From Acidobacteriota bacterium (lineage in GTDB: Bacteria; Acidobacteriota; Terriglobia; Terriglobales; SCQP01), in the NCBI GenBank assembly GCA_027459505.1, contig DAIDIE010000014.1:186001-250000 (forward strand): 64,000 nucleotides of DNA, in the 5' to 3' direction. The notes below the pieces were generated by a model, which was not told where the DNA came from, made no database searches, and saw only the letters and a program-made list of their open reading frames with translations. Shown piece after piece: positions 13,131 through 42,205 of this stretch (positions are counted from its first letter, which is position 1; every line of letters starts with the position of its first letter). The translations under genes and the position numbers were made by a program.

Positions 13131-13487
13131 TTACTTTTCCTTCGCCCATTTTCCGTACTCGTCCGGCTTCCAGCCAAACAGCACGTCTTTGCCGCGAATC
13201 CATAACGGGCGGCGCAACAAGTTCGGGTGCTGCGCGATCAGGCGGATGGCCTCGGCGCGGCTGGGCGGATGTTCCGCCATATTGCGTTCGCGATAGAGTT
13301 CGTTGCGGGTGCTCAGGAATTCCTTGTAGTCGCGATCCCCAATCAGCTCGTCGAGCTCCCGCGCGCTGAGCGGCGCCTGGTTAATCTCGCGCATCTCCGG
13401 CGAAAGCTGCTTCTCGGCCAGGAAACTCCTGGCGTTCCTGCAGCCGGTTCAAGTGGCCTTGTAAACAAATTTCCCGGCTTTCTGCAT
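13131..13487 (-). CDS. Probable selenoprotein: ArsC/Spx-like oxidoreductase with UGA-encoded Sec13
   Basis: Read straight from ATG 13485-13487, this frame has one UGA (13449-13451, codon 13) and then stays open to a TAA at 13131, giving 118 residues, the normal ArsC/Spx length. Around the UGA it reads KFVYKAT-U-TGCRNARSFL, so the UGA replaces the first Cys of the CxxC active site (UxxC). Downstream NLLRRPLWIRG and FGWKPDEY match the family's anion-binding RRP region and C-terminus. GGAGGAG sits five bases before the ATG, an ideal ribosome-binding site, so the upstream codons are meant to be translated. A SECIS-like hairpin follows the UGA (13405-13445), and selA lies at 40790. The gene is 12 bp downstream of a rhodanese gene. 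Arsenate reduction is possible, but no ars genes are nearby; a thiol/selenol redox role fits equally. Confidence 0.8.
13405..13445 (-). promoter_or_regulatory. Bacterial SECIS-like element after the UGA codon
   Basis: On the coding strand, three bases after UGA, GGCUGC pairs with GCAGCU (one G-U pair) to form a lower stem. A symmetric 6x6 internal loop (AGGAAC/CGAGAA) follows, then GCCAGGAGUUUCCUGGC, a 6-bp perfect upper stem closed by a five-base loop AGUUU that contains the GU dinucleotide expected for SelB recognition. The upper stem begins 15 nt after the UGA, close to the spacing in the Escherichia coli fdhF SECIS. Pairing was done by eye. Confidence 0.75.
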
Positions 13488-13499
13488 GCTCTCCTCCAA

Positions 13500-13838
13500 T
13501 CAGTAGGACTCCATTTCAGGATCGATGTCGCGGGCCCAACCGTCAATCCCCCCACGCAGCGAAACGGTGTTGGCAATACCCTGGCTGCGCAACCAGGAAA
13601 CGACCTGCAGGCTGCGGATACCGTGATGGCAATAGAAGATCAGCGGGCGGCTCGAATCCTCGGCTGCCATCGTCCGCAAGCTGTCCAACTGCATAGGGAT
13701 ATACGCCATCGGGATCAGTTGATCGTTGGGCAGCCGCACCAGTTGATGTTCCCAGGGCTCCCGAACGTCAATGAGTACGTGCGGGCCCCCAGCTTCCATG
13801 AGAATTCGTAGTTGTGCGCCGCTGAGCTCCAGATCCAT
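13500..13838 (-). CDS. Rhodanese-like sulfurtransferase domain protein
   Basis: A single-domain, 112-residue cytoplasmic rhodanese. VLIDVREPWEHQLVRLP is the N-terminal CH2A-like motif. The active-site loop is CHHGIRS with Cys70 as the persulfide-carrying residue; the six-residue loop is typical of sulfurtransferases rather than phosphatases. It ends with LRGGIDGWARDIDPEM. It lies 48 bp after prmC and 12 bp before the Sec-containing ArsC-like gene, so the two redox proteins are probably co-transcribed and may act on related sulfur or selenium chemistry (inference). Confidence 0.92.
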   Translation of the reverse strand: MDLELSGAQLRILMEAGGPHVLIDVREPWEHQLVRLPNDQLIPMAYIPMQLDSLRTMAAEDSSRPLIFYCHHGIRSLQVVSWLRSQGIANTVSLRGGIDGWARDIDPEMESY

Positions 13839-40789: not shown

Positions 40790-42205
40790 ATGGACCAGCA
40801 ACGCAGGACGGCACTTCTTCAGGCGCTCCCCTCGGTTGAGGAACTGCTTCAGGACGCCAGCCTGGCAGCCGACCTCAAACCCCTTGGACCACGTTTGGCC
40901 CGCGATGTGGTGCGCACCGTGCTGCAGCGGCGGCGCGACTGCATTCTCGCCCTCAATGCGGAAAACGCCTCCAGCAGTGTGGATGGGAACGGTTCTGATC
41001 TGGCTGGCCAGATCAGAACCGCCGCGCGGCAGGAGCTCCGCTTTTCGTTGCGTCCCGTGCTGAATGCCACGGGCGTCATCCTGCACACCAATCTCGGTCG
41101 CGCCCCTTTGGCGGCGGAGGCCGCACAACGCCTCATGGAACTGGCGCAAAGCTATTCAAACCTGGAACTCGATCTCGAAAGCGGCAGGCGCGGCAAGCGC
41201 GATGTGCATGTGGAAACGCTGGCCTGCCGTCTCACCGGGGCGGAACGCACCGTCGTGGTGAACAACAACGCCGCGGCTGTCTTACTGCTTTTGAATACGC
41301 TCTGCGTTGGAGAGCGCAACGAGGTCTTGGTGTCTCGCGGTGAGCTGGTCGAAATCGGTGGCTCGTTCCGGGTTCCCGATATCATGACGCGCAGTGGCGC
41401 CCGGCTGGTCGAAGTGGGCACAACCAATCGCACCCGGATTGCCGATTACCGGGCTGCTCTGTCGCCCCGTAGTGCGTTGATCCTGCGGGTTCATCGCAGC
41501 AATTTTCAAATGTCTGGGTTTGTTGAGCAGCCCCCGCTCAGCGAATTGGTGAAGCTGGCCGGGGAAGCCCGCGTTCCGCTTGCGGAAGACCTGGGCAGCG
41601 GCTGTCTGGTGGATCTGCGCCAGGCCGGCTTGCGGCGCGAACCGCTGGTGGCGGAAAGCGTGGCGGCTGGAGTTGACGCCGTGACCTACAGCGGCGACAA
41701 GTTGCTGGGAGGGCCTCAGGCGGGGTTGATCTCCGGACGCAAGACGCTGGTCGATCAGTTGCGATCCAACCCTATGTTTCGCGCGCTCCGCGTTGACCGG
41801 CTTACCTACGCCGCCCTGGAGGTGACGCTCCGGATGTATTTGGAGGAACGCGCCCAGGCCGAACTCCCCGCTCTACGGATGATTTTTGCCGGTGACGGCC
41901 GGGATCGTGCCGCAGCCTTCATCACCCGGCTGGATGCCTGGTGGAACCCTGGGCTTGTGCAGGGTTACAGCGTCATTGGCGGAGGCAGTACCCCGGGCGA
42001 GCAAATCCCTTCTGTTTTGGTTCAGCTTTGCCCGCAAGGCGTTTCCGCCTCATCTCTGCATGAAAAATTGCGTGCGGCGGACCCGCCAGTGCTCGCGCGG
42101 ATCGAGGAGGACAAGCTGCTCCTGGATCTGCGTACGATTCTGCCCTCTCAGGAAGAGCTCCTAATTCGAACGCTGGGCACGCTCCGCTCGCTTCTCTCCA
42201 GCTGA
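40790..42205 (+). CDS. selA: L-seryl-tRNA(Sec) selenium transferase
   Basis: A 471-residue PLP enzyme that turns seryl-tRNA(Sec) into selenocysteyl-tRNA(Sec) using selenophosphate. RPVLNATGVILHTNLGRAPL, NNNAAAVLLLLNTL, SRGELVEIGGSFRVPDIM and HRSNFQMSGF are diagnostic. The PLP lysine is Lys304 in TYSGDKLLGGPQAG. Length is normal and the gene looks intact, so the organism should make selenoproteins. selB, selD and tRNA-Sec are not in this window; selB often follows selA but here a convergent membrane-protein gene does. Candidate client: the UGA-containing gene at 13131. Confidence 0.97.
   Translation: MDQQRRTALLQALPSVEELLQDASLAADLKPLGPRLARDVVRTVLQRRRDCILALNAENASSSVDGNGSDLAGQIRTAARQELRFSLRPVLNATGVILHTNLGRAPLAAEAAQRLMELAQSYSNLELDLESGRRGKRDVHVETLACRLTGAERTVVVNNNAAAVLLLLNTLCVGERNEVLVSRGELVEIGGSFRVPDIMTRSGARLVEVGTTNRTRIADYRAALSPRSALILRVHRSNFQMSGFVEQPPLSELVKLAGEARVPLAEDLGSGCLVDLRQAGLRREPLVAESVAAGVDAVTYSGDKLLGGPQAGLISGRKTLVDQLRSNPMFRALRVDRLTYAALEVTLRMYLEERAQAELPALRMIFAGDGRDRAAAFITRLDAWWNPGLVQGYSVIGGGSTPGEQIPSVLVQLCPQGVSASSLHEKLRAADPPVLARIEEDKLLLDLRTILPSQEELLIRTLGTLRSLLSS

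Follow-up and report, generated by a model that had tools for sequence, protein, structure and literature searches.

Reports of ArsC-like proteins containing selenocysteine (Sec) go back to 2005 (with UxxS; PMC1088965), and ArsC-like selenoproteins have been described in deltaproteobacteria (PMC1794560). The Sargasso Sea arsenate reductase selenoprotein (COG1393; PMC1088965) resembles the protein encoded in the window (the whole 64-kb stretch of DNA analyzed) in having Sec in place of the catalytic Cys, but its resolving residue is a Ser, where the family described below has Cys in all 95 UGA-containing genes. "Arsenate reductase 2" of the 2008 Global Ocean Sampling survey is given, in the part of that report dealing with it, as a cd03032 protein with UxxC and known Cys homologues (PMC2398784). 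It is like the window protein in having an ArsC-type domain with Sec first in UxxC; these are marine metagenome sequences, likened to the window protein by description only, and the same part of the report (PMC2398784) mentions no rhodanese neighbor, unlike the window locus. NF041106 (ArsC_rel_Se_1), listed as "Arsenate reductase-like protein" (UxxC; PMC13188914), is a further ArsC-like UxxC selenoprotein family. The window protein scores 24.2 bits against its model, well below the cut-off of 85. The closest solved folds are YffB (PA3664, 1rw1) and Bacillus Spx (1z3e), at 20–27% identity; to our knowledge, neither is a selenoprotein. The cd03032 group is the Spx-like ArsC group.

ArsC/Spx-type UxxC selenoproteins are already known, and the window protein adds one more. 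The earlier note on this DNA found the correct frame, but mentioned neither this prior knowledge, nor the minus-strand location, nor the rhodanese partner. Added here are the sub-cut-off scores against existing models, the absence of a key arsenate-binding Arg and of the Spx alpha-CTD Gly, and a rhodanese link in 63 of 140 loci. No description of the Acidobacteriota family or of the rhodanese link was found in the literature searched, coverage of which was incomplete.

Reading frame and homologues

The features discussed are listed in Table 1. As had been noted from the sequence, a strong ribosome-binding site and an ATG (13487) begin a frame of 118 residues, closed by a TAA at 13133-13131, in which the UGA at codon 13 is the sole internal stop. 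The translation around it is MQKAGKFVYKAT-U-TGCRNAR, with K-A-T-U-T-G-C-R at the codon itself, i.e., a UTGC active site. Such a frame is by itself unremarkable: 112 frames in the window start with ATG, run to 118 codons or more and are broken by a single TGA. The significance of this one comes from homology before and after the UGA and from the recurrence of UGA at this codon, found in 95 of 140 loci (window locus counted). The ArsC/Spx-like character claimed for the flanking sequence is borne out by a match of residues 12–113 to Pfam ArsC (PF03960; E 9.4e-15), whose score of 55.1 bits against a gathering cut-off of 24 places the protein in the ArsC superfamily, and by matches to Spx structures (E 8e-13). 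No other PF03960 protein was found in the source genome. Rfam had no match at the gene, its sole match in the window being one tRNA. Read on the plus strand, 13131-13487 yielded no sensible gene, and this option was rejected.

Table 1. Coordinates of the features discussed, in positions of the window
Feature	Position	Strand	Details and basis
Predicted ArsC/Spx-like selenoprotein gene	13131..13487	minus	118 codons + TAA; Sec13-x-x-Cys16 active site
In-frame UGA, codon 13, probably read as Sec	13449..13451	minus	UGA/Cys exchange across 140 homologues
Ribosome-binding site GGAGGAG, 3 nt 5' of ATG	13491..13497	minus	Sequence
SECIS-like hairpin GCCAGGA-GUU-UCCUGGC, 7 bp	13417..13433	minus	Comparative; fits published bacterial SECIS limits
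Single-domain rhodanese, active loop CHHGIRS	13500..13838	minus	PF00581, E 1.2e-12
selA, L-seryl-tRNA(Sec) selenium transferase	41057..42139	plus	PF03841, E 2e-136

Under the standard code an annotatable remainder of 87 residues is left, starting at 13394; the earlier note gave 88 residues from the same start. The active site is missing from this fragment, and many Acidobacteriota genomes probably contain the same error.

Homologues were sought across the phylum (396 genomes) and the class (399), and also in named genome contigs; the comparison set consists of the 140 Acidobacteriota loci where the position of the active-site codon could be assigned. This codon is TGA in 95, TGC in 34 and TGT in 11, with no other codon found, so that the placement of the UGA at the first Cys of a CxxC holds across the set, with Cys in 45 loci and UGA in the remainder. 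A second Cys follows at +3 in 139 of the 140, including all 95 UGA genes. In an alignment of 50 members K10, directly before the UGA region, is invariant, as are U/C13, C16, L90, R93, and G105. An in-frame UGA aligned with the Cys of homologues is a criterion for bacterial selenoproteins, and by this criterion the window gene qualifies as one. A sequencing error in a TGT or TGC codon is very unlikely, as many other genomes have loci with UGA in this position.

The nearest homologue among those found is at most 58% identical to the window protein, and the window gene forms a long branch. On a tree of the 140 proteins there are 14 Sec/Cys changes at best, at least five of them on supported branches, making the family a good natural data set for Sec/Cys replacement in both directions. 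A search of the 13 other genomes of the same family did not find the gene, although SelB is present in most of them, so it is dispensable; this distribution could reflect either transfer or repeated loss.

The downstream hairpin and Sec decoding

The hairpin lies at nt 19–35 counted from the UGA, with its apical loop GUU (13426-13424) after a spacing of 22 nt, and has an energy of -11.8 kcal/mol. With these values it falls within the limits published for bacterial SECIS elements (PMC13188914), which were applied here in simplified form. The same was true of 94 of the 95 UGA genes and 12 of the 45 Cys genes (Fisher p 7e-21, a value inflated by relatedness), the latter mostly by way of stems elsewhere. 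In the majority of Cys genes the hairpin is absent or no better than expected by chance. In most UGA genes the hairpin is at the same position, with a GUU or GGUC apex. Stems of at least 6 bp are found in 89 of 95 UGA genes vs. 8 of 45 Cys genes, and the mean energy of nt 13–42 is -9.5 kcal/mol in the former vs. -5.5 in the latter. Folding the whole 51 nt gave mixed z-scores, because the flanking pairs vary; the informative test was that of the fixed apical hairpin.

The arms covary, with C-G, G-C, T-G, and T-A found at one pair and G-C and A-T at another. The number of pairs observed (6.4) exceeds that expected under synonymous recoding (4.25, s.d. 0.08); in the window gene by itself, a fraction of 0.015 of synonymous recodings pair equally well. 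In a phylogeny-aware test, for which the trait and hairpin columns were masked in building the tree, there were only five independent Sec/Cys pairs on supported branches, and the hairpin difference reached only a median p of 0.06 (sign test). Residues +7 to +10 are R-G/S-L/F-L in Sec forms vs. K/R-A/K-F/K/Y-L/M in Cys forms, as would be expected were the protein sequence constrained by the RNA. In Sec forms the residues after the active site (R-G-L-L or R-S-F-L) appear to be set by the hairpin. Taken from sequence comparison, a role as SECIS for the hairpin just 3' of the UGA is strongly supported.

Four UGA genes (L047, L162, L067, and L140) are off register. In three the hairpin is retained in a shifted or rebuilt position, while L067 is the one UGA gene outside the simplified limits. 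L140 is a UGA gene that the tree places among Cys genes; its hairpin differs in sequence and is shifted in register, and Sec may have been regained here. Two Cys-form genes beside Sec genes (L138 and L139) have an apparently decayed hairpin, consistent with recent Sec-to-Cys replacement.

The source genome (4.06 Mb, 97% complete) encodes a tRNA-Sec with anticodon UCA, SelB, and SelD, and SelA is in the window, where the earlier note had placed it; together these constitute selenoprotein machinery. There are two other UGA-containing selenoprotein genes, both outside the window. One is selD itself (G000:C24:313736-314662; L019), with an in-frame UGA in AGUAGK followed by an 8-bp SECIS-like hairpin with loop GGU, and the other is a formate dehydrogenase alpha-like gene (G000:C24:122179-122922; L168) with UGA in the classical ARIUHS context. 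Across the comparison set, SelB scored above its family cut-off in 39 of 42 genomes with UGA forms vs. 24 of 38 with Cys forms, or 41 of 42 vs. 25 of 38 if split genes are counted (p 2e-4). The exception is G583, a fragmented UGA assembly without SelB. From this distribution, UGA forms go with Sec decoding, and Cys is used by genomes that lack SelB, G583 excepted.

The earlier note had named as fatal to its reading homologues lacking Cys or Sec at this position, a genome without selB, selD, and tRNA-Sec, or a resequenced TGT or TGC codon, and had proposed a search for a bacterial SECIS. All of the refuting outcomes were checked directly or approximately and none was found; given the homologues, the covarying hairpin and the decoding machinery, its inference of a Sec-dependent redox enzyme was sound and is supported.

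Function, competing readings and the rhodanese neighbor

The gene product is very probably a redox protein of the ArsC/Spx/YffB fold in which the codon-13 UGA has been decoded as Sec (probability about 0.93, a figure that applies to the Sec-decoded redox protein and not to any role of the rhodanese). The predicted structure, built from only four sequences (mean pLDDT 73.5), matches YffB (Z 14.1) and Spx (13.4), and then arsenate reductases (about 10.6). The window protein falls short of the NCBIfam cut-offs for Spx and the Spx/MgsR subfamily, for arsenate reductase, and for the ArsC selenoprotein model.

These values bear on two more specific readings. A classical glutaredoxin-dependent arsenate reductase, with Sec replacing the catalytic Cys, would account for the Pfam ArsC match, the arsenate reductase fold matches, and the alignment of Arg93 with the conserved Arg94 of E. 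coli ArsC. It is nonetheless quite improbable: TIGR00014 reaches 38.4 bits against a cut-off of 106, His8 is not conserved, the U/CxxC of this family corresponds to CGTS in E. coli ArsC, and the immediate neighbors of the gene are the rhodanese and prmC rather than arsenic genes. The loop carrying Arg107 of E. coli ArsC, the third arsenate-binding Arg, is also missing in the alignment. A regulator of the Spx/MgsR type, in which a Sec-x-x-Cys switch would sense oxidants through RNA polymerase, is improbable as well, even though the best sequence matches are Spx structures, TIGR01617 matches at 61.5 bits, and the fold match to Spx is close. All Spx model cut-offs are missed (NF002459, 54.1 vs. 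123; TIGR01617, 61.5 vs. 75), and YffB, which is not known as a regulator, matches the fold equally well, the Z values being tied. Asp53 of the window protein aligns with Spx Gly52, the interface residue needed for alpha-CTD binding.

Under the standard code the UGA would be a true stop, and what remains would be a decayed gene or else a protein of 87 residues; such an ORF does exist. This reading is highly improbable, since 95 loci have UGA here and the frame is conserved before and after it, and the start of the shorter ORF lies beyond both the active site and the hairpin.

A UxxC redox enzyme is the best-supported reading. By analogy with the chemistry of the family, the Sec13 selenolate would attack an oxidized sulfur substrate, Cys16 would then resolve the intermediate as a selenenylsulfide, and re-reduction would be by a cellular thiol system, either thioredoxin or a low-mass thiol. 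A candidate for the other participant is the rhodanese, which is directly upstream on the same strand with a gap of 12 nt and is probably an operon partner. A rhodanese is upstream and co-oriented in 63 of the 140 loci, the window included (47 Sec, 16 Cys), mostly within about 120 nt, with no rhodanese match in the stretch read at the other 77; it is the one neighbor found common to the window and distant relatives. Gene order suggests, with considerable doubt and with adjacency as the sole tie, that the rhodanese could be the usual partner or substrate, its active-site Cys being persulfidated or oxidized; the pair might then reduce sulfane sulfur or release it, or serve to maintain rhodanese activity. 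The best guess is a selenol/thiol reductase acting with the rhodanese on persulfides or oxidized thiols. More tentatively, rhodanese and Sec-ArsC might form a two-gene redox module widespread in Acidobacteriota, in which a selenium-dependent persulfide reductase acts on rhodanese persulfides, distinct from both arsenate reduction and Spx regulation. The link provides a testable function for a group labeled "arsenate reductase" by default.

A role for the rhodanese as selenium supplier was considered and rejected: the same rhodanese is kept beside 16 Cys-form genes, and so is not specifically a selenium-delivery device. In other lineages, at many Acidobacteriota loci (e.g., L078, L118, and L110), genes for enoyl-CoA hydratase, 3-hydroxyacyl-CoA dehydrogenase, and macro-domain proteins are found nearby. 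These fatty-acid-oxidation and macro-domain neighbors are recurrent there, but are not immediate neighbors of the window gene and were set aside.
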